Of a DNA stretch of 33,304 nucleotides, positions 7,918-31,862 are shown one piece after another (positions within the stretch are counted from its first letter, which is position 1; the number at the start of each line of letters is the position of its first letter). Source of the stretch: Anaerolineales bacterium. GTDB lineage: Bacteria > Chloroflexota > Anaerolineae > Anaerolineales > Villigracilaceae. The stretch spans positions 1 through 33,304 of the forward strand of contig JAHDWC010000010.1 of NCBI GenBank assembly GCA_023382575.1, written 5' to 3'. The notes under the pieces are model-generated. The model did no database searches. It saw only the letters and a list, made by a program, of their open reading frames with translations, and was not told the DNA's origin. A program made the translations under genes and the position numbers.

Positions 7918-7959
7918 AAAATCTCTCCTTCCAGAGAAAATAAATACAAATGAACGGTC

Positions 7960-7988
7960 ATCATAGCACGCCTAATAACGCTCGTCAA
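7960..7988 (-). promoter_or_regulatory. Sigma-70-type promoter of the PIN/TRAM gene
   Basis: On the minus strand TTGACG (7983-7988), a 17-base spacer and TATGAT (7960-7965), the latter preceded by TGC as an extended -10. It lies about 43 bases upstream of the ATG at 7917. Confidence 0.75.
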
Positions 7989-8015
7989 TTCAAATAAGCG
8001 CTAAACTTATAAAGT

Positions 8016-8024
8016 TGTTATAAT
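8016..8024 (+). promoter_or_regulatory. Extended -10 promoter of moaA
   Basis: TGTTATAAT matches the extended -10 consensus TGNTATAAT. No convincing -35 is visible at the usual distance, as expected for an extended -10 promoter. It lies 58 bases upstream of the moaA ATG. Confidence 0.6.
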
Positions 8025-8082
8025 CCGCCTCTACCGGATCGAATTTGACGCGTTTTGTGCTTTATTGGATACGGAGAATCCC

Positions 8083-16441: not shown

Positions 16442-18034
16442 CTAATACGAACCCGAAAAATAATTTCCGATGAGATCATCGTAGCTGACATTGACGATTT
16501 CGCGTGCCAGAGCAAAAAAGTCCGCGCCAGTGGTGTGACCGTTGGCATAGCGTGTGGCGTAGGTTTGAATGAATTTCGAGAAATTGCCATAGCCCATCCG
16601 CTCGCGCATTTCATCGAGGAAAAGCGCCCCGCGGAAATAAACCGCGTTGGTATAGGCACGGAAGGAGCCATAGTCGTAGATGCTGCCATCTACATAGCCG
16701 GTCGGCTTGAAGTAATTGACACGGAACTGCCACCACCAACTGATATTGGAAGGATAGTTGTTTTCGTAAAAGATCCGTTCGCTGTATGTGGAAAGTGCTT
16801 CATCGAGCCAGGGCTCAAGCGCATGGTCACTGCCCACAAGGCTGTACCACCATTGATGCGCGATTTCATGCACGCCAATGGTCGTCAGATTGCTGCGCGA
16901 GGAACCGGTATATTGACTGTAAAAATCGGTGGCGAGGAAGACCAAGCCGTCATATTCCATGCCGTCGTCCATGTCTGTTTGCACGATGGCCAGAGTTTGA
17001 TGCGGATACGGGGAGAACTGTGCTGAAAATGTTTCAACGGCTTCGATGGCGTAGATCAGCATATCGTCCCCCGCAGTTTGATATCCGTTGAAATAATACG
17101 AGCGGATGGTAACATTGCCAACCGCAGTCTCTTTGACGACAAATTCATTGCTGGCAGAGATCGCCAGCGTGCGTGTGCCATACATGCGGTAGCGCGTCCA
17201 TTCGCCATTCGATTCGGGCGAAGCGCCCACAGCCAGGGTTACACTGGAATCAGTTTTGATGTTCAACTCGATATCGGATGCGTCGTACATCAGATGCTCG
17301 CCCCATGGCATGGGGTCATGCAATATCCACCCGCCGCGGTTCGGGACGATGAATGGATACCAGTCTGTGAGATTGATCTGGTTGAAGTCATAACCGAAGA
17401 CATCGTTCGCGCCTTTGGCTGGGATATTGAGATTGAAGTTGAGCGTGATCGTCGTCGCCGCATTTGAGGCGATGGGCTGATTCAAATTGACCGTCAGTCG
17501 TTGCCCGCTGAGAGTATAAGACGTCAACGCCGTTCCATCTTGTGAAATGGAATTAAGTGTAAAAGCATTGTTGTATAGATTCGGCTGAACCGATAAAACC
17601 AGATCCGACAGGTTTGAACCAGTCTTGTTGTAATAGCGGATGGTCTGATCTGCGCTGACGGTTTTGTTTGCAAAATCAAGCGTGGCGTGTAGGATGTAAC
17701 TCGTCAGCGGAGACGAGGTTGGGGCTGGCGAATTCGTTGTCGGCGAAGCAGGAGGCGCAGTCAGTGTGGCGGTAGGTGAGAGTGTCGGGGTGAATGTCGC
17801 ACTGGGAATTGGGGAGGCAGTAAATGTCGGGATGGGCGTAGCCACTTCTCCAGAAGGTTGGAAGGGTGTTGGTGTGGCGGCGTTTGGGTCACGCGTGGGA
17901 AGGACGAAGGGCGCAAACGGCAGCGGCGTAGGCGTGGGGGCTGGCGCCGTGCAAGCGATCAGGATGCTGGAAAGAATCACGAAATAGAAAATGCGTGAAA
18001 CATGGTGGGTGAAACGAAATGGAGAACGGTTCAT
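16442..18034 (-). CDS. M1-family zinc metallopeptidase, lipoprotein (first of two)
   Basis: 530 residues. The signal peptide ends in lipobox LIAC (25-28), so C28 would be lipidated and the enzyme exposed outside the membrane. A Pro/Thr/Ser-rich linker covers about 29-108. The gluzincin motif is H389-E390-x2-H393 (HEIAHQWWY) and E412 is 18 residues further, as in M1 aminopeptidases. The exopeptidase motif GxMEN is altered: DGMEYDG at 357-363 has Tyr for Asn. The start overlaps the upstream paralogue by ATGA, so translation is coupled. It probably cleaves peptides at the cell surface; aminopeptidase activity is uncertain given the changed motif. Confidence 0.92.
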   Translation of the reverse strand: MNRSPFRFTHHVSRIFYFVILSSILIACTAPAPTPTPLPFAPFVLPTRDPNAATPTPFQPSGEVATPIPTFTASPIPSATFTPTLSPTATLTAPPASPTTNSPAPTSSPLTSYILHATLDFANKTVSADQTIRYYNKTGSNLSDLVLSVQPNLYNNAFTLNSISQDGTALTSYTLSGQRLTVNLNQPIASNAATTITLNFNLNIPAKGANDVFGYDFNQINLTDWYPFIVPNRGGWILHDPMPWGEHLMYDASDIELNIKTDSSVTLAVGASPESNGEWTRYRMYGTRTLAISASNEFVVKETAVGNVTIRSYYFNGYQTAGDDMLIYAIEAVETFSAQFSPYPHQTLAIVQTDMDDGMEYDGLVFLATDFYSQYTGSSRSNLTTIGVHEIAHQWWYSLVGSDHALEPWLDEALSTYSERIFYENNYPSNISWWWQFRVNYFKPTGYVDGSIYDYGSFRAYTNAVYFRGALFLDEMRERMGYGNFSKFIQTYATRYANGHTTGADFFALAREIVNVSYDDLIGNYFSGSY

Positions 18035-19524
18035 TGATAGACGTTGCGGAAATATTGGTTGATCAGGTCGGAAAGGTCTATGGTGGTGTGCGAGCGCAAA
18101 ATGCGGAAGAAGTCGTTGGCGGTGACGATCTTGCCGCGTCCCTGATTGAGATAATCTTGAACGAAGGCGAAGAAGGCTTCGTCGCCGATGCGCTGGCGGA
18201 TTTTTTCAAGGAAATGCGCGCCTTGGAAATAAGCCGCGTTGGTGTAAGGACGGAAGCCCTGTCCCTCATAGATGGGAATATCGACAAAGCCTTCAGGTTT
18301 GTAAAAGTCGATGCGATATGACCACCACCAGCTGACGATGTCGGGATAGGTGTTTTCGTAGTAAAGCCGCTCGGAGTAAGTGGCGAGAGTCTCGTCAAGC
18401 CAGGGCTGAAGCGCCTGGTCACTGGCGACTTGCTCAAACCACCATTGATGCGCAGTTTCGTGCGCGGCGACAAAGGTCAGGTAATTGCCGGGCGTGCCAT
18501 CGTACAAGTTGTAAAAATCCTTGCTGAGATAGAAGAACGCGGAATATTCCATGCCGTCGTTGAAGTCGCCCATCACAATGGCAAGGCTCTTGTGCGGATA
18601 GGGTCCATACTTTGAACCGAAGACTTGCAACGCTTGTGCCGATGCCTGCAAGGCACCTTGTCCGCCGCGCTCATTGAAAGGGAAGTAGTAACTGGTGAGC
18701 GTCACATCGCCGACCTGCGTGCTGGAGGTTTGGAACTCGCGGCTGGCGGCAAGGGCGAAGGTGCGGGCAGAGGTCAACGTGTAGCGTGTGCCATCAGGCA
18801 GCGCCTCAGGGACTCCGCTCGAAGCGACGATGGGCGCGGTAGCGGAATCACTGAATTTGAGATTCACTTCGTAATCCGCTGAGTTGTAGACGAGATGTTC
18901 ACCGTAATACCACGGGTCATGCAGAATCCATTCACCGTTGATGTTTGGCACGACGAATGGATACCAGTTGACGAGATTGATCTGTCGGGTGGTGTAGCCG
19001 TAAATGCGCGGACGGGAAATGCCGGGGTCTTCCTGCTCGGCGAAAGGCAAGCTCAGGGTGAAGCCAAGCTTGATTTCGGTCACACCGCCTGCGGGTAGGA
19101 ACGAAGCGAGGGAAATATCAAGGCGTTGTCCGTTGAGGGTGTACGTCGTGACGGGTTCTCCGTCAATGGCGATGCTGGTGAGAGAGAAGCTCCCGTCCCA
19201 AAGATTGGGCGTGACGGCCAAGACCAGTGTGTTGAGTTGGTTGCCGGTTTGATTCGGATAGAGGATGGTTTCATCGACGGTTACGATGTGGGCGTCATAG
19301 TCAATGGTGGTGTTGAGCGTGTACTTGGCGCGCTCCAGGGCGGGGAGTGGCGTGTTGGTGGGCTGGGGAGTTTCTGTCGGTGCGGCAGGCGTGTCGGTCA
19401 CAGGCAAAGTCAGAAAGACCGATTCGGTGGGAGTGGGCGCGTCTACGGGTTGATCCGCTGAACAGGCAGAGGCGAAAAGGATGATAACAAGAATTGAAAT
19501 GATGGTCTTCTTATGGTTTTGCAT
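18031..19524 (-). CDS. M1-family zinc metallopeptidase, lipoprotein (second of two)
   Basis: 497 residues from the ATG at 19524. A GTG at 19569 lies inside the terminator hairpin of the preceding gene and is rejected. Lipobox ASAC puts the lipidated cysteine at C21, followed by a Pro/Thr-rich linker to about residue 63. Zinc ligands are H355, H359 and E378 (HETAHQWWF with the 18-residue spacing), and the GxMEN position reads DGMEYSA. It is clearly a paralogue of the next gene: both share WYPF-VPN, GEHL-Y and a C-terminal YTNA-YF-GA-FL segment. It heads a run that ends with EamA. TAGAAT lies 7 bases before the ATG and no Shine-Dalgarno is present. Confidence 0.92.
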   Translation of the reverse strand: MQNHKKTIISILVIILFASACSADQPVDAPTPTESVFLTLPVTDTPAAPTETPQPTNTPLPALERAKYTLNTTIDYDAHIVTVDETILYPNQTGNQLNTLVLAVTPNLWDGSFSLTSIAIDGEPVTTYTLNGQRLDISLASFLPAGGVTEIKLGFTLSLPFAEQEDPGISRPRIYGYTTRQINLVNWYPFVVPNINGEWILHDPWYYGEHLVYNSADYEVNLKFSDSATAPIVASSGVPEALPDGTRYTLTSARTFALAASREFQTSSTQVGDVTLTSYYFPFNERGGQGALQASAQALQVFGSKYGPYPHKSLAIVMGDFNDGMEYSAFFYLSKDFYNLYDGTPGNYLTFVAAHETAHQWWFEQVASDQALQPWLDETLATYSERLYYENTYPDIVSWWWSYRIDFYKPEGFVDIPIYEGQGFRPYTNAAYFQGAHFLEKIRQRIGDEAFFAFVQDYLNQGRGKIVTANDFFRILRSHTTIDLSDLINQYFRNVYQ

Positions 19525-19553
19525 GGAGGCAATTCTACCGTAAAGATTCTTAA

Positions 19554-19581
19554 CAAAAACCTCCTGCACGAGGCAGGAGGT
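19554..19581 (-). terminator. Intrinsic terminator of the SRPBCC gene
   Basis: ACCTCCTGC (19559-19567) pairs with GCAGGAGGT (19573-19581) around 5 bases. The minus strand continues into a T-run (19554-19558). It is 24 bases after the stop at 19605. Confidence 0.8.
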
Positions 19582-20208: not shown

Positions 20209-21024
20209 TTATGCTTTTCGCAGACGCTTCCAACCGAATGCGACGAGGAAGAACAGGGTCGCGGTCAATACGATGGCGGAGCCTGAAACCACATTGAAGT
20301 AATAGCTGATATACAAGCCAACCACCGACGAGATGGCGCCGATCACTGCGGAGACCAACATCATCGGTAGGAGGCGGCGGGTGAGCAGGTAGGCCGTCGC
20401 AGCAGGTGTGACCAGCATCGCGGCGGCGAGACTGACTCCCACGGTTTGCAGTGAGACAACGACGGTCAATGCCAGAAGGACAAGCATCAGGTTGCGGAGC
20501 AGTTCAGTAGGTAGGCGCAGCGTTGCAGCGAGGACGGGGTCAAATGAAATGACGAGGAAAGGTTTGTACAACAACGCCACAATAACCAAAATAGCAAGGC
20601 TCAAACCGCCGATCAGCCACAGGTCGGCTATGCTGACTCCCAAGACATTCCCGAATAGGATATGGCTCAAGTCCACGGCATAGGTTTGCATGGTGCTGAT
20701 GAGCGCCACGCCCAATGACAAAGCCGCCGCAAACAGGATGCCAATGGCTGTGTCCTCTTTGACGGCGCCTTCCCTGGTGAACAAACCTATGGTCAATGCA
20801 ATGGCAATGGCCGCGGCTCCCGCGCCGATGAGAAGGTCCCCTTTGAGGATGTACGCGATAGCTACACCGGGAAGGATGGCATGCGCCATCGCATCACCGA
20901 GGAACGCCATGCCGCGCAAGACAACATAGGTTCCCATCACGGCGCACAACACACCGACAATGACCGATGCCAGCAGTCCGCGCTGCATGAATTCGTAGGC
21001 GAGCGGTTCAAGCAACCAGTTCAT
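20209..21024 (-). CDS. znuB: Zinc (or manganese) ABC transporter permease
   Basis: 271 residues from the ATG at 21024, which overlaps the ATPase stop by ATGA; an upstream in-frame start would run far into that gene. It is an ABC-3 family membrane protein with about eight helices and the conserved RGMAFLGDAMAHAILPGVA segment that contacts the ATPase. It works with the ATPase and binding protein of the same operon to import zinc. The upstream Fur-family regulator and the His/Glu-rich loop of the binding protein favour zinc over manganese, but manganese cannot be excluded from this subunit alone. Confidence 0.92.
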   Translation of the reverse strand: MNWLLEPLAYEFMQRGLLASVIVGVLCAVMGTYVVLRGMAFLGDAMAHAILPGVAIAYILKGDLLIGAGAAAIAIALTIGLFTREGAVKEDTAIGILFAAALSLGVALISTMQTYAVDLSHILFGNVLGVSIADLWLIGGLSLAILVIVALLYKPFLVISFDPVLAATLRLPTELLRNLMLVLLALTVVVSLQTVGVSLAAAMLVTPAATAYLLTRRLLPMMLVSAVIGAISSVVGLYISYYFNVVSGSAIVLTATLFFLVAFGWKRLRKA

Positions 21025-21827
21025 TTCGCCTCTGTGTGATGATGGTGGTGTTCTTCGTCTGGCGGACAACATTCATCGACGAGCATCACGCCATTTTCCA
21101 TTACCAATAAAGAGTTGCCGAATGCCTGTGCAAGATTCTCTTTGACAAATACCTCCTGCGGCGTACCAAACGCTATCAGTCGATGATTCAGCAAAAGCAC
21201 GAGGTCGAAGCGCGAACCGGCGAGATTCAGATCATGAGTCGAAACGATGGCCGTCACTTGTTGTTCCTGTAAATGATCGAGCAGACGCAGCGTCGCTTCC
21301 TGTGTGGTGATATCAACGCCTGTGAACGGTTCGTCCATCAAGAGAATGTGCGGCTCCTGCGCGATGGCGCGTGCCAAAAATGCGCGTTGCTGCTGCCCAC
21401 CCGAAAGCTGACCGATGGAATGTTCCGCAAGGTCGGCGATGCCCATGCGTGTCAGGCTCTCTTGAACGGCATCTTTGTCATGTACAGTAGTACGCTTCAG
21501 CCAGCCCATCTGCGCGAAGCGTCCCATCATCACCACATCGCTGACCGTGACCGGAAAACGCCAATCCACTTCTTCACGCTGTGGGACGTATGCCACGCAA
21601 TCCCGATGTGCCCCCAACGATTCACCGTGGATGAGAATTTCGCCTTTTTGCAGAGGCAGCAACCCGACCAATGCTTTAAACAGCGTGGACTTGCCAGCGC
21701 CATTGGGTCCCACCACTGCCACACGCGCACCATGCGGGACCTGAAAGCTCAGATCCCGCAAGATGATTTTTTCGCCGTAGCCGATATTGATGTTCTTTAC
21801 TTCGAGCCGATGAGGAGTATGTGACAT
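21021..21827 (-). CDS. znuC: Zinc (or manganese) ABC transporter ATP-binding protein
   Basis: 268 residues. Walker A GPNGAGKST (40-48), signature LSGGQ (141-145), Walker B ending LLMDE with D165 and catalytic E166, so the site is intact. The C-terminus ends EEHHHHHHTEAK, a histidine run that could bind zinc and is longer than in many ZnuC proteins. It energises import through the permease whose gene overlaps this stop by 4 bases. It follows the binding-protein gene by 48 bases, and the start has only a weak ribosome-binding site. Confidence 0.92.
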   Translation of the reverse strand: MSHTPHRLEVKNINIGYGEKIILRDLSFQVPHGARVAVVGPNGAGKSTLFKALVGLLPLQKGEILIHGESLGAHRDCVAYVPQREEVDWRFPVTVSDVVMMGRFAQMGWLKRTTVHDKDAVQESLTRMGIADLAEHSIGQLSGGQQQRAFLARAIAQEPHILLMDEPFTGVDITTQEATLRLLDHLQEQQVTAIVSTHDLNLAGSRFDLVLLLNHRLIAFGTPQEVFVKENLAQAFGNSLLVMENGVMLVDECCPPDEEHHHHHTEAK

Positions 21828-21875: not shown

Positions 21876-22823
21876 TTACTTCAAAGCATTCACGATTTGT
21901 GTCACATTATGTTTCATCATGTCAAGGTATGTTGCTGCAGGTTCGCCATGGGTCAACGACTCGAAATATAAATTGTCAACCACCACAATCCCGGTCTCAG
22001 CGGCGATCTGATTCGCCAGATCGGCATTCTCCACTTCGCCAAGGAAGATGGCCGGCGCGCCCGAATCTTTCACGGCATCCACGGCAGAGGCGATCTCCTG
22101 CGCCGAAGCGCCCGCTTCTGAGCTAAAGCTTGGCAGGATGGTATCCACGATCTCGAACCCATACCGTTCGGCAAAATATCCCAATGCTTCGTGATTGGTG
22201 ACCAATAGACGATGCTCCGCTGGAATGCTTTCCAACTGTTCACGGATGAAAGCATCCAGGTCTTGCAACTGCGCTATGTACGCCTCAGCATTAGACTGGT
22301 AGCTTTCCGCCCCATCGGGATCCGCCTCGCTCAAGCCATCGCGGATATTTTCCACGTAGGTAATGACCAGGTTCGGGTCAAGCCACATGTGCGGATCGCC
22401 TGCCTCATGTCCATGCTCTTCGTCTTCTTCGGTATGTTCTTCACTTTCTTCATGTTCTTCCACCTCATGCGGAGTTAAGCCTGTTGTTGCTTCAATCACC
22501 AGACGTTCGCCGCCAGCATTTTCCAGTAGCGGCTCAATGAAATGTTCGTATTCGATGCCGTTTAAGATCAACACGTCGCTTTCTGCGATTTTGGAGACAT
22601 CCGCCGGAGCGGCTTGATAAGCGTGTGGGTCTGCGCCAATGGGCAGCAGGGATTCCACGGTCAGGCGGTCGCCTGCCACGTTCTGGGCAATGTCTGCGAG
22701 GAAGGAGGTGGAGGCGATGACCTTCAAGCCTTCGTCTGCGCTTTGAGGGGCAGACCCACAACCCGTTAGGACAAGAGCCGCAAAGGTCAGAATTACAAAA
22801 ATGGTATTGATAATCTTTTTCAT
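21876..22823 (-). CDS. znuA: Zinc ABC transporter substrate-binding lipoprotein
   Basis: 315 residues. The signal sequence ends in lipobox LTGC with C22 lipidated, so it is tethered outside the membrane. Metal ligands expected of cluster A-I proteins are H67 (GADPHAY), H145 (GDPHMWLDP), H211 (TNHEAL) and D283 (VVVDNLY). A Glu/His-rich loop at about 119-140 precedes the second histidine, as in zinc-specific ZnuA, where it is thought to scavenge Zn. AGGAG lies 7-8 bases upstream of the start. An 8-bp hairpin (TCCCTCAC/GTGGGGGA on the minus strand) separates it from the regulator gene. Confidence 0.95.
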   Translation of the reverse strand: MKKIINTIFVILTFAALVLTGCGSAPQSADEGLKVIASTSFLADIAQNVAGDRLTVESLLPIGADPHAYQAAPADVSKIAESDVLILNGIEYEHFIEPLLENAGGERLVIEATTGLTPHEVEEHEESEEHTEEDEEHGHEAGDPHMWLDPNLVITYVENIRDGLSEADPDGAESYQSNAEAYIAQLQDLDAFIREQLESIPAEHRLLVTNHEALGYFAERYGFEIVDTILPSFSSEAGASAQEIASAVDAVKDSGAPAIFLGEVENADLANQIAAETGIVVVDNLYFESLTHGEPAATYLDMMKHNVTQIVNALK

Positions 22824-22877: not shown

Positions 22878-23297
22878 TTACGCGCGGCAGTTCGCGCACA
22901 GACCAAACAATTGTAGCCAATGTTCCTTGATCTGATAGCCGGTCTTCTTGGCAATGGACTTGGTCAACGCCTCGAGGTCGTCACCTTCGAAGAATTCCAC
23001 CTGCCCGCATTGCTGACAGAGCAACAGGTGCTGATGTCCAACGCCTGCTGCGATGAATGCCTGACAACCCATTGGCTGATGCACACGCTGGATGAGGTGC
23101 AACTCTTCCAGTTTTTCAAGTGTGCGATAGACCGTGACCAGCCCCAGCGCACGATATTTTTTGCGCGCCGCATCATAGACTTGAATGGGCGTGAGTGCAT
23201 GCGTGGCGCCGAAGATGGTATCCACCACTGCGCGCCGCGCCGCTGTGATGCGATAGCCATGATCGTGAAGTTGTTCCAGCCAATGCTCAGCCGTCAT
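22878..23297 (-). CDS. zur: Fur-family metal-responsive repressor, probably Zur
   Basis: 139 residues, normal for Fur/Zur. A winged-helix DNA-binding domain covers about 1-80, with LGLVTVYRTLEKLEE as the recognition region. The structural zinc is bound by two CxxC pairs, C94-x2-C97 (CQQC) and C134-x2-C137 (CANC). Metal-sensing histidines include H88 and H90 (GVGHQHLLLC). Family membership is certain; Zur rather than Fur or Mur is inferred from co-transcription with ZnuACB and from the operator-like palindrome at 23314-23332. It is the first gene of the operon, and a repressor that controls its own promoter is expected. Confidence 0.9.
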   Translation of the reverse strand: MTAEHWLEQLHDHGYRITAARRAVVDTIFGATHALTPIQVYDAARKKYRALGLVTVYRTLEKLEELHLIQRVHQPMGCQAFIAAGVGHQHLLLCQQCGQVEFFEGDDLEALTKSIAKKTGYQIKEHWLQLFGLCANCRA

Positions 23298-23313: not shown

Positions 23314-23332
23314 ATTGAAAAACGTTTTCAAT
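23314..23332 (-). promoter_or_regulatory. Zur-box-like operator at the zur-znu transcription start
   Basis: ATTGAAAA-ACG-TTTTCAAT, a perfect 8-3-8 inverted repeat. Its core TGAAAAACGTTTTCA differs at two positions from the actinobacterial Zur/FurB site TGAAAATCATTTTCA that I recall. It lies directly after the -10 hexamer and ends 17 bases before the zur ATG, so it should cover the start site and repress the operon. Confidence 0.72.
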
Positions 23333-23333
23333 A

Positions 23334-23361
23334 ATTATAAAGGAAATTTTTATATCGTCAA
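23334..23361 (-). promoter_or_regulatory. Promoter of the zur-znuACB operon
   Basis: Minus strand TTGACG (23356-23361), 16-base spacer, TATAAT (23334-23339). The -35 hexamer is the outermost part of the hairpin arm at 23391-23396/23356-23361. Confidence 0.68.
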
Positions 23362-23396
23362 GAGGCAGACACGGGTGAGGTGTCTGCCTCTTGACG
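23356..23396 (-). terminator. 16-bp hairpin after the NicO-propeller gene, overlapping the zur -35
   Basis: CGTCAAGAGGCAGACA (23356-23371) pairs perfectly with TGTCTGCCTCTTGACG (23381-23396) around 9 bases. It begins 3 bases after the stop codon at 23399. No strong T-run follows, so termination may be partial. One arm supplies the -35 of the next promoter. Confidence 0.65.
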
Positions 23397-23398
23397 AG

Positions 23399-25912
23399 TT
23401 ACCATGCCCACTTGGGATTGAAGCCGTCGATCTGCAAGTCGTTCACTTCCCCGGCTTCGATGTTCAATACTTGTAAACGAGACTCGAAAGGGAATGCTGC
23501 CAAAGAATACAACTCATACAGCAAATACTCTCCATCAGGTGACCAGTTCAAACTGCCATGCAAAGAGTCGATGTCATCTGTTAGGACATGGGCATTGCCG
23601 CCATCCACGTTCATGATCCAAATTTGGTCGCCGCGCGTCATGGACAGGTCACGCCGTATGACGGCGATTTGCGTTCCATCTGGCGACCAGGCTGCCAGCG
23701 TATTCTCAAACCCCTCACCCGGGCTGACGTTGATGAGGGTCTTCAATTCCATGTCGTACAAAAATAACTGCGTTACGAATTGATCGTGTTTGATGACCAC
23801 GTCTCGCAGCAGGATCATTTTGCTGTTGGGTGACCACATAGCCGCCGCGCCGAGAATGTTCTCGATGACGCGCGTTTCGCCGTTCTCAAGGTGATACAAA
23901 CGGATTCCTTCCGGTGTAGCATAGCTCAGCCATTCGCCGTTCGGTGACCAGCGTGGATTCCCACCGGGGATTTGCGCATCTTGAAATACAGGCTGCGCTT
24001 CACCTGTCGCCACAGCCACCCACCACAAGGTGGGCAAGCCGCTGCCAGTGCTGTCCAAGCTCAAATGTTCGTAGACGATGCGGCTGCCATCTGGCGACCA
24101 GACCATGCCCGAGCAAATTGCATCTACACAAGCGGATAATTTTTTACGGGTGAGCGTTTCCAAATCTGCGAGCCAGATCTCGTTCGAGGCGCTGTCATTT
24201 TGGATGATGTATGCCGCCAGTTTTTTGTCAGGCGAGACGATGAAATCTGCCACACTTTGGCTGCCGTCCGAAAGTATTTGCGAATTGTCTTTTGAATAAT
24301 CTGTGATGAACAAATGCTTGATGCGATTCTCGTCCTCGCGGAGATACAGGATTCGCGCATCGTTTATCGACGTTTGAGTTGGCAGCGTGACCGTGAGATT
24401 TTCCTGCGCTCGAACCACTGCGCCCCACGTCAGCCCGGCGCCGAGGATGAGGACGATGACGGCGGAGACCACTGGCAGGACGGGTGCGAAGCGATCCAAA
24501 AAGCCCATGCGGTCGAAGAGGCGGCGGCTATTGACCATCAGCAAACCGATGATGATCAAAATCACAGCGAGCCCCAGGCTGAAGGATAAGATCAAAGCCA
24601 AACCAAGCATGAGGCGGTTGATCGCAATCGCGACCAACAAGATGGCGATGGCATCCGGGCAGGGGACAAGTCCGCCGCTGATGCCGAGAGCGATGAGCGA
24701 ACGCCAGGTGATGGTTTCAGGTACATCGTGCGAGTGCATTTTTCCGTCGCCATGGTGATGCATGCCAGGTATGGCGGTTTGAATTTTGACCGCGCTGACA
24801 GGTTTTTTATTTGCCGTGATTGGCGTTAGCGATACACGCTTGGGCTGCGGTTGGGTGGGCTTTCTGGATTTCTGCCAAAATAAAAATCGCTGCCAGAGGA
24901 GATAGGCGCCGAGTCCCAGAATCAGTGCGCCAGAGAGGATTTCGAGAAATGGAAAGATAGTCGTCGGCAGAATGTATTGCGAGGCTGCCAATGTGATGAT
25001 GCCAAGCAAAAAGACCGAGCCGGTATGCGTCAGCGTGACGACTGTGCCGAGGACAATGGCGTGCCAGGAAGTGCCGCGCGAGCCGACGAGGTAGGCTGCG
25101 ACAACCGTCTTCCCGTGACCGGGAGTCAGCGCGTGGAGTGCGCCCAACGCCAACGCGATGACAAGGGCGATGACGTAAAACGTAAGGGAAAGCTCTTCGT
25201 TGCGGACAAGGTCGAGCAGAATTTCCTGTGGCGAACGCTCTGATAGTTCGGGGACAACTTGCTCGGCGGTTTCAGTGACGACATCCTTTTCCTGACCGAA
25301 TGGCAGGGCGGGCGCGCCACTATCCCATGTGGTGAGCAGACGGCTCTGGTCTTCAATGGAGGCGGGATTGCGGATGTGGTCGATGATGAGGATATGACTC
25401 TTTTGAGATGGAAAGAGGAAAGCAGTCCCGTTCATGGCGTTGAGATAAAACCAATTGATGGATTTCGCCGTTTCCAATGTGTTTTCGATGATGATACGTT
25501 CGGCGTTGTCTGCGCTTTGATTCAACGCGGCGGAATATTGAAAGGTGATGAACTCCTCGCCGGACTGAAACATGTTCAATGTGGAAGGCAATTGGGTCGA
25601 GACAACTGTCAACAGGAGAGGTTTGTCGTCGAGGCTGACGGTCAACTGGTCGAGGCGCGAGGCGCTCCAGGCTTGGGCTTCGTCGTCGCTGACGGTACCA
25701 TCTTGATTCGCATCCATTTCATTCCAGATGAAGTTGACCAGAAGCGGGCCGGGCTTGATCTGCCATTCGACCTGCATCTCTGTTTGTGAAAGGGTCACTG
25801 TGATGGTGTGTGCGTACAAGTCCGCGGGGTGGGCGTGGACGGTTTGCATGGGCAGGCTAAGAGACACTAGCAAAAGTAGTGTCAGGAGGGCGATATGATG
25901 TTGTCTTTTCAT
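23399..25912 (-). CDS. NicO-family metal permease fused to EF-hand-like ectodomain and C-terminal beta-propeller
   Basis: 837 residues from the ATG at 25912 (ATGA overlap with the previous stop). Order of parts: signal peptide ending VHA (25-27); extracytoplasmic domain about 28-240 with a canonical EF-hand loop at 67-78 (ligands D67, N69, D71, T73, S75, E78); membrane part about 243-500 with the NicO/RcnA motif GALHALTPGHGKT (257-269), a His-rich loop MHHHGDGKMHSHD (384-396) and GGLVPCPDA (413-421); then a TolB-like propeller from about 515, with repeated WSPDG/WSPNG motifs. NicO proteins move Ni, Co or other divalent metals. A propeller on such a permease is unusual. A longer upstream start is rejected because it reads through the neighbouring gene. 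Confidence 0.88.
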   Translation of the reverse strand: MKRQHHIALLTLLLLVSLSLPMQTVHAHPADLYAHTITVTLSQTEMQVEWQIKPGPLLVNFIWNEMDANQDGTVSDDEAQAWSASRLDQLTVSLDDKPLLLTVVSTQLPSTLNMFQSGEEFITFQYSAALNQSADNAERIIIENTLETAKSINWFYLNAMNGTAFLFPSQKSHILIIDHIRNPASIEDQSRLLTTWDSGAPALPFGQEKDVVTETAEQVVPELSERSPQEILLDLVRNEELSLTFYVIALVIALALGALHALTPGHGKTVVAAYLVGSRGTSWHAIVLGTVVTLTHTGSVFLLGIITLAASQYILPTTIFPFLEILSGALILGLGAYLLWQRFLFWQKSRKPTQPQPKRVSLTPITANKKPVSAVKIQTAIPGMHHHGDGKMHSHDVPETITWRSLIALGISGGLVPCPDAIAILLVAIAINRLMLGLALILSFSLGLAVILIIIGLLMVNSRRLFDRMGFLDRFAPVLPVVSAVIVLILGAGLTWGAVVRAQENLTVTLPTQTSINDARILYLREDENRIKHLFITDYSKDNSQILSDGSQSVADFIVSPDKKLAAYIIQNDSASNEIWLADLETLTRKKLSACVDAICSGMVWSPDGSRIVYEHLSLDSTGSGLPTLWWVAVATGEAQPVFQDAQIPGGNPRWSPNGEWLSYATPEGIRLYHLENGETRVIENILGAAAMWSPNSKMILLRDVVIKHDQFVTQLFLYDMELKTLINVSPGEGFENTLAAWSPDGTQIAVIRRDLSMTRGDQIWIMNVDGGNAHVLTDDIDSLHGSLNWSPDGEYLLYELYSLAAFPFESRLQVLNIEAGEVNDLQIDGFNPKWAW

Positions 25913-27273
25913 GGCAGCCATTGTGGCATGAAACCTTCGATCAGGAATTTGGATTCTCCCATACCACTTTGCCAAATGCCGATCTCGGGTTTGTATTCTC
26001 CGCGTAGTTTGAATTGTTGAAAGAGCAGGGCTTCTCCCCATGGGTCCCATTGAGGTGAATTGTAATAGGTGTAATCGGGGTCGTCCGCGATGACGATGCC
26101 ATCCAACAGTCCGGGATTGAAGACCCACAATACCTGGGTGGGTTGGTCTTCGCTGGCGCGAAAACTTAAGACGGCGCGATCTTCGCGCGAAGACCACGAC
26201 AATGCATAGTAAAAATAATCGCGCGTATCCTTTTCGCCGACGAGGGTGATGGTTTCGTTGATGGACAGGTCAGCCAGACGAACCTGCGTGCGAATCCCCG
26301 CTTCCTTTTGCTCGACCGTAGTGTATACCATTTTAGTGGAATCGGGCGACCAGGCGATGGGTCCGCCGGTGTTCGAGGAGAAGAGATATTGCTCTCCGGT
26401 TTGGAAATCAATCAGGTTGATGGTATCTGCCAACCCGTCGAATGAAGCGAGTTTATTCGAATCAGGTGACCAGACAGGGTTGTATCCCAAAACTTGCTGA
26501 TCTTCGTACACGGGTCCATCCTGACCGTTGACCATGTCCACGACCCAGATGCGTGGTGACCCGAATGGAAAATCTGGCGTGGGTCCGGCTGCTTCGCGCG
26601 AATAGGCGATGCGCGTTCCATCTGGTGAGACAGAGGGCGTAGTGCAGCGGTCAACTCCGCAATCGAGCAGCACAGAAGCATCACCGCCATTGCGGCTGAC
26701 ACGCCACAGGTCGACGCCGCCCTGATCGTTTCTGGATGTGAAAATAACGAACTCGCCATCTTGCGACGCATCAAATGAAATGACCGAGAGGGTTTCGTCG
26801 GTGATGGGTTGCGGATCATTGCCATCTGCCGCCGCCGACCAAAGGATGTAGCGATCTTCCTGCAAACGCAAATAAACGATGCGCGGCTCACGGACGGTGA
26901 AATTCCACGTCTGCGCCTGTTTGACTTCACGTCCGCCGCTGGCGGTTTCGCCTGCTTCCACCAACAGACGATAGGTCACATTTCGTTGATAGGGCTGGAC
27001 TGGCGTAAAACGCAGGGTGTAGGTATCTGTCCATTCGAGATAGCCATCGTGGACAGGGTCAATGGAGATGAGCGAGGATGCCATTTCTGAATCGAAGGCT
27101 TCAGAAAACGTGAAGGTGATGGTTTGATAGGGACCGACAATACCATCTTCGGGCAAATCCACGCGCACGCGGACGCCTGCCTGTTCTCCGATAAAGATGA
27201 CAACTCCAATGAGTGTGGCAATGACAAGCAGGAGACCGACAGCAGCAGTATCGAAAGAGAGGCGTAATTTCAT
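25909..27273 (-). CDS. Membrane-anchored Ig-like plus TolB-like beta-propeller protein
   Basis: 454 residues from the ATG at 27273, which overlaps the previous stop by ATGA. One N-terminal helix (about 10-30) anchors an exported chain. An Ig-like domain follows (about 35-135; FTFSEAFDSEMASS, then a WTDTYTLRFTP strand pair) like the Big_5/SbsA-type domain. The rest is a six-bladed TolB-like propeller with motifs VSPDGTRIAY, WSPDSNKLASF and WSPDSTKMVY. Its end (EGFMPQWLP) resembles the end of the next protein (DGFNPKWAW), so the two propellers are probably paralogous. No enzyme residues seen. By context it is the partner of the metal permease; binding or sensing outside the cell is an inference. 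Confidence 0.85.
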   Translation of the reverse strand: MKLRLSFDTAAVGLLLVIATLIGVVIFIGEQAGVRVRVDLPEDGIVGPYQTITFTFSEAFDSEMASSLISIDPVHDGYLEWTDTYTLRFTPVQPYQRNVTYRLLVEAGETASGGREVKQAQTWNFTVREPRIVYLRLQEDRYILWSAAADGNDPQPITDETLSVISFDASQDGEFVIFTSRNDQGGVDLWRVSRNGGDASVLLDCGVDRCTTPSVSPDGTRIAYSREAAGPTPDFPFGSPRIWVVDMVNGQDGPVYEDQQVLGYNPVWSPDSNKLASFDGLADTINLIDFQTGEQYLFSSNTGGPIAWSPDSTKMVYTTVEQKEAGIRTQVRLADLSINETITLVGEKDTRDYFYYALSWSSREDRAVLSFRASEDQPTQVLWVFNPGLLDGIVIADDPDYTYYNSPQWDPWGEALLFQQFKLRGEYKPEIGIWQSGMGESKFLIEGFMPQWLP

Positions 27274-28025
27274 GGGAATAAATATGGTTGATCTGGCGCG
27301 GGGACGCTTTGCACCGATTCCGCGACGATCATCGGCACACGGTTTCCATCCAAAGTAATGGACTCGATGCTGCCTTTCACCAAGACCCATGAGTCTTGTT
27401 CAAGTGTCAGCGCTTCACCCCATTGTACGGGCATGGCAATGGCGAAACCGTCTGCGGCGCAGCATGAGACGACAAAACGGCTGACATAGAATTGATCCGC
27501 TTCGAGGTCGTCGTTGAAGTAGACGAAGCCCACCACAGAGGCGCTCTGCCCGACAAATTGAGTGACATCCTCTTCAAAGTTGAAGAGTTTCAACCAGTCC
27601 AGAATGTTGCGTTCTTCTGATTCAGTTTCGAAGATGCGCGCGGACGAATCCGAACTGATGAGCGGGGCGCTGGTGCTGAATCCCTTGGTGGAGAATGCCG
27701 CCGAGTCGAGTGGACGTGCAGGGATCAAAATGCCAATTGCCAGCGGCACTAGCATGACCCATAGATTTCCAGAAGCGGGCGCATGTTCATGCTCATGATG
27801 ATGGTCATGATCGTGGTCTTCCTGTTCCTGTTTGCGAGATCGGCGAATGTCTGTGAAAACCGTTTGCGCGAGCACGGCGAGAAAGACAATGCCAAAGATC
27901 GTCAACGGAACGAAGCGCGCGTTGATGTACCAGGTCAACTGACCATTGGCGGCTTTGGCGGCAAAGAAGATGCTCAGTCCGAGCAATAACAATCCTTGAA
28001 AAGAACGAATCATTCGTGTGGGCAT
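27270..28025 (-). CDS. YcgQ-family (TIGR03943) protein, partner of a YcgR permease
   Basis: 251 residues. Two N-terminal helices (about 10-28 and 38-56), a cytoplasmic or loop His/Asp/Glu-rich stretch at 66-81 (alternating HDHDHHHEHEH), a third helix (about 87-103), then a soluble domain with the conserved SCCAADGFAIAMPV motif. The twin cysteines and histidines suggest metal binding. The family is known mainly as a constant neighbour of YcgR/YraQ permeases and is usually annotated as a putative permease subunit of unknown role. The start has AGGTGA inside the end of the permease gene, 4 bases away, and the stop overlaps the next start. Confidence 0.88.
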   Translation of the reverse strand: MPTRMIRSFQGLLLLGLSIFFAAKAANGQLTWYINARFVPLTIFGIVFLAVLAQTVFTDIRRSRKQEQEDHDHDHHHEHEHAPASGNLWVMLVPLAIGILIPARPLDSAAFSTKGFSTSAPLISSDSSARIFETESEERNILDWLKLFNFEEDVTQFVGQSASVVGFVYFNDDLEADQFYVSRFVVSCCAADGFAIAMPVQWGEALTLEQDSWVLVKGSIESITLDGNRVPMIVAESVQSVPAPDQPYLFP

Positions 28026-28029
28026 GGCG

Positions 28030-29037
28030 TCACCTAACCAGATAGTTAAAAATCAAACCGGTCAACAAACTCATCATGAATGGAATGACGACGATGTAAA
28101 ACACTGCGCGTCGTTTGAAGACCTGCAAATACATCATCACGCTTTTGATGTCCACCATGGGCCCGAAGACGAGGAAGGAAAGGATCGAACCGAAACTAAA
28201 AGTGTTGACGAATCCCAGCGCGACGAACGAATCAACGGTTGAGCAAATGGAAAGCAGGATCGCAAGCAGCAGCATCACCAACACCGAGAGGATCGGTCCG
28301 CTGCCAACAGCCAGCAACGCCGATTGTGGGATGAACGTCTGCAAGCCGGCGGAGAGCATCGAGCCAAGGATGAGATAACGTCCCATATCGAAAAACTCGT
28401 CGACAGTGATGAGCAATGCCTTGCGAACTTTTTCGGTGGCGGAATCGCCAGCGACAGCATGGATGTGGTCATGCTCATGGTCTGATAGCACAGGTCGCAA
28501 GATGTTGCCCGCATCTTGCTCGACCGAGAAAATGAGTCCCACCACGACGGCGATCACCAAACTGACGGCGAAACGCCAGAAGAGCATCTGTCCCCACCCA
28601 AAGGCGGAAGCCGTGCTAAAAATGACGATGGGATTCAAAACCGGCGCCGCCAGCAAAAACGAAATACCTGCAGAAAGCGGCAATCCTTTTCTAAAGAGAC
28701 GGCGGGTGAGCGGCACGACACCGCATTCACAGACTGGGAAGAGCATGCCCATGAAAGCGCCGCTGACTGCCGCGGCAGCGGGTCGGTTTGAGACCCACTT
28801 ACTCATCTGGTCGCGGTCCACGAACACTTCCACGAGTCCCGATGCGAACGTGCCAAGGAGGAGATAGGGCACAGCTTCTACAAAGATGCCGAGGAAGACC
28901 GTCGCGAAGACGTTCAAACGATCCCATAACCAGGTGAAGAACCCGGCAGGGATCATGCTGGAGGCGACAAGGACGAGAACGCCCAGGGCGATGACGATGA
29001 TCAAATTGCGCGGAAGACGATTGACAGTAGTTTGCAC
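28030..29037 (-). CDS. YcgR/YraQ-type (ArsP-like) permease
   Basis: 335 residues with about eight helices in two repeats and a central loop near residue 200 rich in His and Asp (DHEHDHIHA). The family signature FPVCECGVVPLTRRL has paired cysteines in a membrane segment; relatives include ArsP, which exports organoarsenicals, and the uncharacterised YraQ/YcgR proteins. The start codon is GTG, with TATAAT 6 bases upstream and no Shine-Dalgarno. It is the first gene of the four-gene metal operon. Substrate uncertain: the position beside zur-znu and the histidines favour a divalent metal. Confidence 0.9.
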   Translation of the reverse strand: MQTTVNRLPRNLIIVIALGVLVLVASSMIPAGFFTWLWDRLNVFATVFLGIFVEAVPYLLLGTFASGLVEVFVDRDQMSKWVSNRPAAAAVSGAFMGMLFPVCECGVVPLTRRLFRKGLPLSAGISFLLAAPVLNPIVIFSTASAFGWGQMLFWRFAVSLVIAVVVGLIFSVEQDAGNILRPVLSDHEHDHIHAVAGDSATEKVRKALLITVDEFFDMGRYLILGSMLSAGLQTFIPQSALLAVGSGPILSVLVMLLLAILLSICSTVDSFVALGFVNTFSFGSILSFLVFGPMVDIKSVMMYLQVFKRRAVFYIVVIPFMMSLLTGLIFNYLVR

Positions 29038-29043
29038 GCGATG

Positions 29044-29049
29044 ATTATA
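29044..29049 (-). promoter_or_regulatory. -10-like hexamer of the permease operon
   Basis: Minus strand TATAAT, 6 bases upstream of the GTG start at 29037. No -35 of good quality is visible. It suggests a leaderless message. Confidence 0.45.
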
Positions 29050-29075
29050 ACCACGAAAGATTTCCCCGTTTCCAA

Positions 29076-29110
29076 AATAAAAAGACTCTAAAGTTGGCTT
29101 TAGAGTCTTT
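29076..29110 (-). terminator. Intrinsic terminator of the rhodanese gene
   Basis: AAAGACTCTAAA (29081-29092) pairs with TTTAGAGTCTTT (29099-29110) around 6 bases. The minus strand continues TTTTTATTTTGG. It is 5 bases after the stop codon. Confidence 0.85.
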
Positions 29111-29115
29111 GCCTG

Positions 29116-29589
29116 TTATTGCGGCGCGCCTTCGATTGGATATCCTTTGGCATACCATTCGCTTAATCCGCCTGCCATGCTGGTGGCGGTGAAGCCTGCA
29201 TTGAGGAGGATGTCGCGTCCTTGCTGGCTGCGGTTGCCGGAACGACAAACGACCAGAATTTCGCGGTCTTTGGGGAGTTCGCTCAAACGCGCGGGAAGTT
29301 GATCCAACGGAATGAGCGTGGTGTTCGGTGCATGATACTCGTCCCATTCTTCCTGTGTGCGGACATCCAAAACGAAGACGCCATCCTGATACATTTGATA
29401 GGCTTCGTCCACGTTGACCTCACGCGCTAGTGCGGAAGTTGTTCCACCACCGCTGCCGCTGGCGATCAAGTAAACGAGCAAGGCGACAAATGCCAGTATC
29501 GCCAACTGGACGGCGGGGCGCCTCAGAAACGCGGAGAGTCCGCTGCGGGTGTTGAGATTGTTCTTTCTACTGCTTTTTCTTCGAGACAT
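29116..29589 (-). CDS. Membrane-anchored rhodanese-like protein
   Basis: 157 residues. A basic start (MSRRKSSRKNN) is followed by one hydrophobic helix (about 26-44), then a single rhodanese domain (about 57-155) outside the membrane. The active loop is C115-R-S-G-N-R, with the catalytic cysteine that carries persulfide, and FVLDVRTQEEWDEYHAPN is the usual N-terminal motif. It could transfer sulfur or act in redox signalling. It lies 64 bases after the STAS gene and ends in a terminator, so it closes the ferric-reductase-STAS unit. AGAGGA precedes the start. Confidence 0.92.
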   Translation of the reverse strand: MSRRKSSRKNNLNTRSGLSAFLRRPAVQLAILAFVALLVYLIASGSGGGTTSALAREVNVDEAYQMYQDGVFVLDVRTQEEWDEYHAPNTTLIPLDQLPARLSELPKDREILVVCRSGNRSQQGRDILLNAGFTATSMAGGLSEWYAKGYPIEGAPQ

Positions 29590-29653: not shown

Positions 29654-30064
29654 TCAGGGAGCAGGAAATGAGTTCAACGCGCTTTCCAAGTTTGGAAATA
29701 CTTCGAGGAATTGGGTCAACCCGACCACATCCAACACTTGGGCAACAGCAGCTTGCGGATTAAGCAATTTGACATGGTCGCGAGCGGGAGCATCCTGTTT
29801 GGGGTTGATGGCACGAAAGCTTGGACGGCTGCCATCTTTGAGGTTGACGGATTGTCCGGTAAAGATGCGAACCACCGTGTGAAGCGCCATCAGCCCGGCA
29901 CTGCTCACGTAGGGGACCTTTTCCAAATCCAGCAGGAGGCTGCGCGCGCCATCATCGTATGCCTGCTGTGCTTTGTCGATGACGGTGGTGTAGGTGGATG
30001 AGTCGATATCTCCCAAAAGGTGCATGACCATGACGCTTCCATGTTGCGAAAAAGAAATTTGCAT
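29654..30064 (-). CDS. STAS-domain protein (anti-sigma-factor-antagonist-like), copy A
   Basis: 136 residues from the ATG at 30064 with AGGAGC upstream; the longer in-frame start lies within the reductase gene. The STAS core shows DLEKVPYVSSAGLMALH, where the second serine (SSAGL) is the site phosphorylated in SpoIIAA-like antagonists. An insertion of about 25 residues follows the second helix before the HVKLLNP strand. It is similar to copy B at 31422-31835, including that insertion. It follows the ferric-reductase-like gene by 13 bases. No partner kinase or sigma factor is nearby. Confidence 0.88.
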   Translation of the reverse strand: MQISFSQHGSVMVMHLLGDIDSSTYTTVIDKAQQAYDDGARSLLLDLEKVPYVSSAGLMALHTVVRIFTGQSVNLKDGSRPSFRAINPKQDAPARDHVKLLNPQAAVAQVLDVVGLTQFLEVFPNLESALNSFPAP

Positions 30065-30077
30065 TCTATGCTCCTGA

Positions 30078-31355
30078 TTATCTGAAGTTGAACTCTTCGT
30101 AGTGGATGTTATCTTGGGGGATCCCCGCTTCCACGAATTTCTTTTCAAATGCCTGCACCATCGGCAGGGGTCCACACATGTAGACGTGATGCCCACTGAC
30201 ATCCCCGCCCGCGTTCTTGACGATCTCGTCCACAGTTAATGATCCATGCACAGACGAGAAACGGATATTTGCCTTCAGTTTTGGATTCTGTTTGGCGATC
30301 TCGCGGATCTCGTCCGCGAAGACAGCTTCGTCTTCATGCCTCACCGTGTAATAGAAATCTACATGATGAGACAAGTCAGCTTTCAGGTCCCGCAGGAACG
30401 AGAGGAAAGGCGTGATGCCAATTCCACCTGCCACCCAGATTTGCTTCTGTCCGCCCGTTTTGTAATTGAACATCCCATATGCGCCTTCCACAAGCGCCTC
30501 AGTACCAGACTTCAAGTTTTGGAAAAGATGACGAGTGAAATCACCGCAGGCTTTGATGGTGATGCGCAGCACATCTTCATGCGGGGCACTGGCGATGGTG
30601 AAGGGATGCGACTCGTTCAGTGACTTGTCGCCCAGGAACTTGACGAACAGGAATTGCCCAGCGTGGGTGTGTTGGATGGGTTTGCCCTTGGGACGCAGCG
30701 CCACCTCGGTGGTGGAGTTGTTGGGATGTTTGATGGCTTCCACAACATAAGGCGAATGCTTTCCGAAAAACCCGCCAAGGAATTCGGTGTACACGTAGGA
30801 AACCACGCCGATGATAAAGAAGATTTGCGTCCAGTTGATGGCGATGAAAGCGCTGAGCGCGTCAATGTTCAGCGCGTGCAGGTAACCGGCGATGAAGAAA
30901 ATCCCGATATAGCGATGGAGTTTCTTCCAACCTTCGTAGGTGCTGTTTGTTAATTTGTTCAAGAAAGGGATGCGCGGCGCAAGCGTCGGCAGGACGATGG
31001 CGACAATTCCCAAAAAGGCGATCATGGCGAGGTAATTCCCAAGCCGTAAATTGACCGTGGTGATGGGAACGACCAGCAAATGAACGAACATCAAAAGAAA
31101 AGCACTGGTGGATGTGCTGCGATGCGTCATGTACATTTTGTCCAACCCGCCGAAATAGGGCTCCGCCCATTTGGGGCGCGTGGACAAAAACAGGGAGAAC
31201 GACATCAACACCACCAGCAGCGAGCCGAGTACTTCGCCTGCATATGTGCGCAGGAAATCCTCCCGCCCGTCATTGATGGGTGGAAAAACCAGCCAGACGA
31301 CAACGGTCAAAATAACAAGAACAATAAAAACGATGTTTCCCAATTTATGCTTCAT
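30078..31355 (-). CDS. Ferric-reductase-like flavohaem transmembrane oxidoreductase
   Basis: 425 residues from the ATG at 31355 (AAGGTAG upstream); an earlier in-frame start is rejected because it falls in the terminator hairpin. Six or so helices fill about residues 5-195. Histidine pairs H78/H92 and H147/H160 are spaced 13-14 apart, as expected for two bis-His haems. The FAD motif is HPFTIASAP (250-258), the NAD(P) loop GGIGITPF (310-317), and CGPLPMV (395-401) closes the FNR-like domain. It should pass electrons from NAD(P)H across the membrane; the acceptor (ferric iron, other metals, oxygen) is unknown. STAS genes flank it on both sides. Confidence 0.92.
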   Translation of the reverse strand: MKHKLGNIVFIVLVILTVVVWLVFPPINDGREDFLRTYAGEVLGSLLVVLMSFSLFLSTRPKWAEPYFGGLDKMYMTHRSTSTSAFLLMFVHLLVVPITTVNLRLGNYLAMIAFLGIVAIVLPTLAPRIPFLNKLTNSTYEGWKKLHRYIGIFFIAGYLHALNIDALSAFIAINWTQIFFIIGVVSYVYTEFLGGFFGKHSPYVVEAIKHPNNSTTEVALRPKGKPIQHTHAGQFLFVKFLGDKSLNESHPFTIASAPHEDVLRITIKACGDFTRHLFQNLKSGTEALVEGAYGMFNYKTGGQKQIWVAGGIGITPFLSFLRDLKADLSHHVDFYYTVRHEDEAVFADEIREIAKQNPKLKANIRFSSVHGSLTVDEIVKNAGGDVSGHHVYMCGPLPMVQAFEKKFVEAGIPQDNIHYEEFNFR

Positions 31356-31370
31356 ATCTGCTACCTTGTA

Positions 31371-31409
31371 AAAAATAAACAGACAGCGATGCATGCTTGC
31401 ATCGCTGTC
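31371..31409 (-). terminator. Intrinsic terminator between STAS copy B and the reductase
   Basis: GACAGCGATGCA (31382-31393) pairs perfectly with TGCATCGCTGTC (31398-31409) around TGCT. The minus strand continues TGTTTATTTTTT. It is 12 bases after the stop codon of STAS copy B. Confidence 0.78.
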
Positions 31410-31421
31410 CATTCGTGGTCA

Positions 31422-31835
31422 TTAAAAAGATTCGACGGCTTTTTGTTTGTCGGTCAGGACTTCGAAGATCGACGTGTAGCCGACCATATCCAGCACGTTG
31501 AGCACTTGCGGCGTGGGGTTCAACAGTTTGACGTGCTTCTGCAATCCGCTCGTGCGTGAGCGATCCACCGATTTGAGCGCGTTCCAACCTTGCTCAGGGT
31601 CGGGGAGTTCCTCGCCGCGCATCAACAACGCAATGGAATGCAGCGCCACCAAACCCGCACTGGAGATATAAGTCAGTTCAGACAAATCCAGCAAAAGGTT
31701 CGTCGCGCCGCCCTTCTTAACATCCCGGGCAAAATCGATCAACTGCTGATACGTTTGCCCGTCCAATTGACCAGCCACACTGATGACGGAGACAGGGACA
31801 TTTCCCTGTTCCTGAGACACATTGATTTGCATCAT
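31422..31835 (-). CDS. STAS-domain protein (anti-sigma-factor-antagonist-like), copy B
   Basis: 137 residues from the ATG at 31835, with AAGGAGG upstream; the next ATG at 31832 is equally usable. The core motif DLSELTYISSAGLVALH holds the phosphorylatable serine region, and the C-terminus HVKLLNPTPQVLNVLDMVGY is nearly the same as in copy A. Both have an extra loop (here RGEELPDPEQGWNALKSVD) that standard SpoIIAA lacks. It lies 27 bases after the exonuclease stop and before a terminator, so it belongs with that gene in transcription. Its regulatory target is not visible in the window. Confidence 0.88.
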   Translation of the reverse strand: MMQINVSQEQGNVPVSVISVAGQLDGQTYQQLIDFARDVKKGGATNLLLDLSELTYISSAGLVALHSIALLMRGEELPDPEQGWNALKSVDRSRTSGLQKHVKLLNPTPQVLNVLDMVGYTSIFEVLTDKQKAVESF

Positions 31836-31862
31836 CTGCTCCTCCTTGAGAGTAATGTCCAA

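Follow-up and report, generated by a model that had tools for sequence, protein, structure and literature searches.

The window analysed here is a 33,304-nucleotide stretch of contig JAHDWC010000010.1 from an Anaerolineales bacterium (assembly GCA_023382575.1), in which positions 23399-29037 hold a block of four genes, A to D, all on the minus strand. Profile matches identified gene A (28030..29037, GTG start) as an ArsP_1/YcgR-type permease of 335 amino acids (aa) and gene B (27270..28025) as a DUF1980/YcgQ-type protein (TIGR03943) of 251 aa with a His-rich loop. Gene C (25909..27273) encodes a 454-aa protein with an N-terminal helix of transmembrane (TM) type, an Ig-like domain and a PD40 propeller, according to profiles, an AlphaFold2 model and a fold search, and gene D (23399..25912) encodes an 837-aa protein with an N-terminal domain, a NicO permease and a C-terminal propeller, according to profiles, alignment and AlphaFold2. 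The stop codon of A is followed by four bases (28026-28029) and the ATG of B, the stop of B and the start of C share an ATGA at 27273-27270, and the stop of C and the start of D share another at 25912-25909. The starts of C and D (454 and 837 aa) were set by these overlaps, the mechanical open reading frame (ORF) starts being 27390 for C and 26197 for D. A previous sequence-only reading of this DNA had described four minus-strand genes spaced by four bases and two ATGA overlaps, and had called their products YcgR-like, His-rich YcgQ-like, Ig/propeller and NicO-propeller proteins; the sequence bore out the spacing, and the profile matches agreed with all four family calls.

Permease A passed the ArsP_1 family PF03773 with an E-value of 5e-73 and 246.2 bits (gathering cut-off 32.3). 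It also matched part of the Cu/Zn efflux profile of SO_0444 (NF033936, 119.6 bits) and the SaoE model (88.4 bits), below their respective cut-offs of 300 and 325. Both cysteines of its C103-E-C105-G motif were kept in 46/47 A proteins, and C265 was kept in 47/47. Protein B matched PF09323 and PF21537 and scored 183.2 bits against TIGR03943, above the curated cut-off of 88.8; its His-rich stretch is QEDHDHDHHHEHEHA, and its C188-C189 pair was invariant (63/63).

Protein C scored above cut-off for both PD40 and Big_5. Its AlphaFold2 model (mean pLDDT 92.4) shows a helix at residues 7-31 and strands all through thereafter, and a fold search with this model aligned residues ~127-454 to solved propellers. 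Among the matches listed, the closest solved propellers in both sequence and fold were TolB and S9 peptidases, with the TolB equivalog model giving 52.6 bits against a cut-off of 343. A C-X4-C motif of C (C205 and C210; 26644..26661, minus strand) was at least 90% conserved in 35 aligned sequences.

Protein D can be divided into an N-terminal domain (residues 1-235; 25208..25912), a NicO permease region (residues 236-510; 24383..25207), both with boundaries drawn by eye, and a propeller (residues 511-837; 23402..24382) assigned by homology, alignment and tree as homologous to that of C, all on the minus strand. D passed NicO PF03824 (E 2e-11, 44 bits, gathering cut-off 27.7), also matched PD40, and was the sole NicO match in this 98%-complete genome; its score against the nickel/cobalt efflux model RcnA (PRK10019) was 108.5 bits, below the cut-off of 195. 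The HALTPGHGK and VPCPDAI motifs of the NicO region were conserved across 10 aligned D proteins, in which the C-X4-C motif of the propeller (C595 and C600; 24113..24130, minus strand) was invariant. In the AlphaFold2 model of D (mean pLDDT 72.5), the propeller was well modelled and the permease part had low confidence, and the fold matches listed were propellers. In three genomes fused D has a glutamine cyclotransferase gene immediately before it (L056 390-1514, L064 11780-12772 and L013 223-1215).

The propellers of C and D are homologous (E 2e-27), and when the C alignment was searched against this genome, C (E 6e-157) and D (E 1e-89) stood out from all other matches, which had E-values of 2.7e-24 or weaker. 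A cysteine pair with four or six residues between was present in 152/155 C-type propellers of the fetched loci (96 C, 58 D and one fusion to A), the pattern being sought loosely within residues 61-180 of each propeller piece; sought anywhere in the protein, the same pattern occurred in 1/8 distinct generic propellers of this genome. In a FastTree phylogeny of 164 rows, the 58 D rows and two truncated D genes (L234 and L259, labelled C in the tree) formed one clade with a support of 99, nested within the C family, with weak deeper branches (support 7 and 32) and long branches flagged. This topology fits a single NicO-propeller fusion that would not derive from the C gene of the same operon. An origin of D by duplication of C within the operon was not favoured, as the tree keeps the D propellers in a separate clade and places the C of the window with other C genes. 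A permease of the other family is also found fused, since at L177 (6361-8250, genome G232) a single open frame comprises an ArsP_1 permease and a C-type propeller. At L176, a C-type gene lies directly before fur-znuACB.

Conservation of the gene order was followed in 298 genomes of the same class as the window, whose named relatives are Anaerolineae. TIGR03943 (B) scored above cut-off in 63 of these genomes, and all 63 loci were mapped; an ArsP_1 gene (A) lies beside B in 47 of them, and in 39 of these 47 A-B loci C follows close downstream on the same strand, at L043 with another open frame between. At L157, C comes after an 820-aa gene that separates it from B. Outside the class, A-B-C was present in L294 and L305. 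Fused D occurred in at least 10 of the 298 genomes, and a scan of the named genomes for D, taking the best 80 of 346 matches, gave 77 loci, of which 60 had fused D and 13 of these 60 the intact A-B-C-D order. A-B-C is thus a more widespread unit than A-B-C-D. The four-gene order recurs beyond chance and is not unique to this genome; a unique order would have refuted the sequence-only reading. At L126 (7336-8268), the one locus checked from the family that has B without A, B adjoins an alpha/beta hydrolase.

Within the genus of the window, parts of the module come and go. A rhodanese with an N-terminal hydrophobic stretch (29116..29589, minus strand, profile match) lies upstream of A in the window, and in the same genus the order is rhodanese-A-B-C-D, a 188-aa gene and then fur-znuACB in G027, rhodanese-D-fur-znuACB in G061, and rhodanese-A-B-C-fur-znuACB in G179. 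The grouping might be a by-product of conserved gene order with no shared function, as the rhodanese travels along (it lies within 4.5 kb upstream of D in 16/60 fused-D loci and is a frequent neighbour of A-B-C-D or D) and the pieces occur apart, with rhodanese-D-fur-znu lacking A-B-C and, at L112, A-B-C-fur-znu lacking D. We regard this as improbable, since A-B-C remains linked in families whose gene surroundings otherwise differ, and also outside the class, and since permease and propeller are fused both in D and at L177.

Downstream of D, on the same strand, lie a Fur-family regulator named zur by context (22878..23297, profile matches), a znuA-type substrate-binding protein with a His-rich loop (21876..22823), a znuC-type ATPase (21021..21827) and a znuB-type permease (20209..21072). 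The regulator scored best against a Fur model (87 bits, cut-off 220) and reached 39 bits against Zur PRK11639 (cut-off 167). The best NCBIfam models for the three transporter components were AztC for ZnuA (256 bits, cut-off 350; manganese MntC, 253.5 bits), the manganese model MntA for ZnuC (246 bits, cut-off 400; AztA, 202 bits, cut-off 220) and AztB for ZnuB (257 bits, cut-off 280). Because zinc and manganese models score about equally and all below cut-off, the zur/znu names and the zinc specificity rest on context.

The company of the module with the adjacent fur-znuACB operon, to which the sequence-only reading had pointed, recurred in other genomes. A fur or znu gene lies downstream in 11/13 intact A-B-C-D loci, and fur or znu also occurs at another 11 fused-D loci, which lack C. 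In the fetched stretches, fur/znu was found at 11/47 A-B loci compared with 0/16 loci with B only and 1/37 loci with C away from B (40 stretches, from which three without a full C gene were left out). The one-sided Fisher test of 11/47 against 1/53 control loci gave p 0.0009 (0.004 when two loci of the same genus were excluded), values that overstate the linkage because the loci are related by descent and the stretches are unequal in size (~4 to 20 kb). The link to a zinc-type neighbourhood is thus supported, and within the class several families have fur/znu genes next to A-B; by this neighbourhood, the metal of the module is probably zinc.

Another metal would also accord with part of these data: A-B(-C) and D might handle copper, nickel/cobalt, cadmium, manganese or an organo-metalloid, with the zinc-type genes being neighbours only in some lineages. 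The scores of A against SO_0444 and SaoE and of D against RcnA, all below cut-off, leave room for this, as do the near-equal manganese scores of the znu-type proteins. Similar evidence comes from 14 plasmid stretches with YcgR-YcgQ pairs that we opened in Bacillota, Actinomycetota and Pseudomonadota (13 annotated, and one from Nonomuraea unannotated). In 8/13 annotated stretches, genes annotated for metal transport, chaperoning or resistance, or assigned to these roles by our own matches (copper, P-type ATPase, a Ni/Co ABC cluster, a CobW GTPase), lie within about 6 kb of the pair, and 5/13 are without them, a count that is uncontrolled, includes several near-identical Priestia plasmids and comes from replicons that carry many metal genes. 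We consider a metal other than zinc rather unlikely here, given that fur/znu adjoin A-B in several families of the class.

A consensus scan placed a Zur/Fur-type box, TGAAAACGTTTTTCA, upstream of fur (23316..23330, minus strand), and a perfect TGAWAANNNTTWTCA box precedes fur in 16/17 named loci, the only fur without it being that of L215, which lies at a contig end and has a mechanical start that is probably too early. A second box match (22808..22822, minus strand) lies over the start of znuA and possibly represents only signal-peptide codons; 11/19 znuA matches are perfect, overlap the first codons and may likewise be coding. At A, the best match among 14 genes had three mismatches (nine genes) or four (five genes), which is the background level, since among 376 other ORFs none had zero mismatches, five had one and 122 had three. 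No perfect box was found among 59 D genes, where three had one mismatch, two of them over the start codon and that of L245 at -52. The whole genome contains seven box matches (three in a reversed control), none of them at A. Five further box matches in this genome (G000) are at C19:16410, C36:14326, C113:6133, C132:11227 and C209:3062. Outside this lineage the same consensus was absent even before the tested fur/znu genes, and the missing box at A is a result valid for this lineage only.

The sequence-only reading had also suggested testing whether the gene order tracks Zur sites; regulation of the module by the neighbouring Zur-type repressor was not supported, with 0/14 A genes having a box at two or fewer mismatches versus 16/17 perfect boxes at fur. 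For this lineage, Zur control of the A-D operon was rejected, as A lacks a box and has a TATAAT element of its own. Read from the sequence, this element (29044..29049, minus strand) lies 6 nt before the GTG of A, so that the transcript is possibly leaderless, and by eye a TATAAT stands a few bases before the start in 16/17 printed A upstream regions, L257 being without one. The module is probably transcribed independently, without sharing the repression of znuACB, and it is most likely constitutive because it has an apparent promoter of its own and no box of the neighbouring regulator. At L070 (G200), a near-perfect dyad, TGACAAACTGCTGTTTGTCA, lies between the divergent genes fur (8320-8742) and A (7126-8193) and could serve both as an operator.

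These observations bear on the direction of transport. If the operon worked with ZnuACB in high-affinity zinc uptake, the fur/znu neighbourhood would be expected, and ZevB of Haemophilus, a NicO-type protein, is reportedly linked to zinc uptake; such a system is made unlikely by the missing box at A and by the export function of the nearest characterised relatives. As these relatives, RcnA and SO_0444, both export, we lean slightly to export or balancing as the direction.

Taken together, two different permeases, probably for metals, that carry the same apparently outward-facing Cys-pair propeller beside genes of zinc-uptake type suggest an undescribed metal-handling part. Our working model, held tentatively and with somewhat less than even confidence, is that A-B-C forms a three-part metal-handling unit of the cell envelope. 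A would act as the permease with B as its His-rich, Cys-Cys partner. C would be a propeller anchored in the membrane and exposed outside the cytoplasm; it would dock onto the permease and either hand the metal on or retain it, and its two cysteines would form a structural disulfide or contribute to a thiol site for the metal. D would do the job of A-B-C in one chain, its NicO permease carrying a propeller of the same type. The module would be constitutive and keep zinc, or a different thiophilic divalent metal, in balance in the envelope or the cytoplasm, with ZnuACB import adjusted by the Zur-type regulator. That the propellers recognise a metal-binding ligand, as first imagined for this operon, is a guess. 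A broader proposal, which we find doubtful at present, is that Chloroflexota use the Cys-pair propeller as a plug-in metal relay, which would serve YcgR/ArsP_1 permeases (as gene C or by fusion), NicO permeases (by fusion) and the ZnuACB-type importer, and move zinc or a similar metal from one to another outside the membrane; it would then be the third subunit of YcgR/YcgQ in this phylum and would join AztD as a second, independent propeller metallochaperone.

Several observations weigh against these proposals. No box was found at A. As many as 16/63 B loci show no A, 15 of them in one family (f6) and one, L128, at a contig end, and homologues of C occur away from A and B in 36 loci besides the L177 fusion, some of them at contig ends. 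The neighbourhood is far from universal, since 36/47 A-B loci have no fur/znu in the stretch and 38/60 fused-D loci show none downstream, some of these stretches ending at contig ends, and the Fisher values are inflated as described. The permease of the L177 fusion is without the CEC motif, having PVGEYG where A has PVCECG, and the C profile gave no match near the A-B pairs of the 13 plasmid stretches from other phyla. The Cys pair itself is absent in L111, L195 and the contig-end D of L240, as well as in three of the four C-type genes outside the class (L297, L299 and L305, with L294 having it), and no histidine is found among the columns at least 90% conserved in 35 aligned C proteins, unlike in AztD. 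The loss of the pair outside the class and the lack of a conserved histidine also speak for the strongest rival, in which the propeller is purely structural, an envelope scaffold or docking part that takes no part in metal chemistry; its two cysteines would then do no more than stabilise the fold as a disulfide, and metal would be handled by the permeases alone. TolB, one of the closest solved propellers among the matches listed, docks other proteins. In addition, AztD likewise has a conserved structural disulfide, as given in the available parts of its descriptions. We nevertheless judge a mere scaffold somewhat unlikely, because the propeller is coupled, through fusions or operons, to permeases of two unrelated families and, in L176, to fur-znu, which is more specific than general scaffolding.

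Other features surround the module. By eye, a terminator-like hairpin with a T run (29074..29110, minus strand) lies between the rhodanese gene and A, and a hairpin whose T run is not clear (23357..23395, minus strand) lies 3' of D. Translations, also judged by eye, place a ferric-reductase/oxidoreductase-like membrane protein (30078-31412) between two STAS-like genes (29654-30202 and 31422-31862), and adjacent, similar M1-like metallopeptidase genes at 16442-18034 and 18031-19569, with HEIAHQWW and HETAHQWW motifs.

Among known systems, we compared the individual proteins with their characterised relatives. RcnA, an exporter, shares with D the NicO core recognised by PRK10019, whereas D stays below the cut-off of that model and carries a propeller and a further domain at its N-terminus. 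SO_0444, which the accessible part of its description reports as needed under zinc or copper stress (PMC3219624), has a profile that A matches in part, whereas A falls short of the cut-off and has B and C as neighbours. TolB is among the closest solved propellers to C by Foldseek E-value in the matches listed, yet C is far below the TolB cut-off and differs by its TM-type helix, Ig domain and Cys pair. Titles and abstract openings among the matches listed from the literature on NicO, beta-propellers, permeases and zinc contained no propeller-fused permease, subscription journals lying mostly outside that search. For another zinc acquisition protein, ZepA (PMC10957091), the terms permease and propeller were absent from the portion of the text available.

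AztABCD offers the nearest functional parallel. AztD is a propeller that passes zinc to the binding protein AztC, and the parts of the two papers available describe it as eight-bladed, with pore histidines, under Zur, and with a conserved structural disulfide, C214/C231 (PMC6689063, PMC7463823). As in AztABCD, a Cys-pair propeller is here encoded near a zinc-type ABC operon, of which ZnuA and ZnuB score best against AztC and AztB, both below cut-off. C differs from AztD, as far as the latter is covered by these sources, in having a TM-type helix and an Ig-like domain, other permeases, no conserved histidine and no box. The cysteines of the pair have 4 or 6 residues between them here and are C214/C231 in AztD; the two pairs may or may not correspond in position. 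AztD was not among the matches listed for C (60 of 212, and the fold-search matches listed). Membership of C in the AztD family was set aside because C lacks the conserved zinc-ligand histidines of AztD; the analogy, in which C might relay metal as AztD does, is an unproven one of function. A YVTN propeller with an N-terminal hydrophobic stretch is encoded just upstream of YcgR-YcgQ on plasmid pI of Streptomyces mirabilis (L326, 3350-6477), with an ArsR/SmtB regulator and a P-type ATPase as neighbours; the C profile did not match it, and at E 1 neither did AztD.

The pair A-B itself corresponds to YcgR/YcgQ, also called ScfA/ScfB. According to the part of PMC5584981 available, the pair is found in several phyla, group A streptococcus required it during infection of mice, and it had no known function. 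DUF1980 is named in a table in the available part of PMC5020093, and a term search of the accessible text of PMC6103462 and PMC4324032 found no 'ycg' names. A and B belong to the same two families (ArsP_1 and DUF1980) in the same order, with TIGR03943 above cut-off, and the loci of Chloroflexota differ by adding a third gene, the propeller C. The conserved third gene, the fusions and the zinc-type neighbourhood give a testable metal hypothesis for YcgR/YcgQ (ScfAB), and a propeller common to two permease families would broaden the roles of propellers in metal handling.

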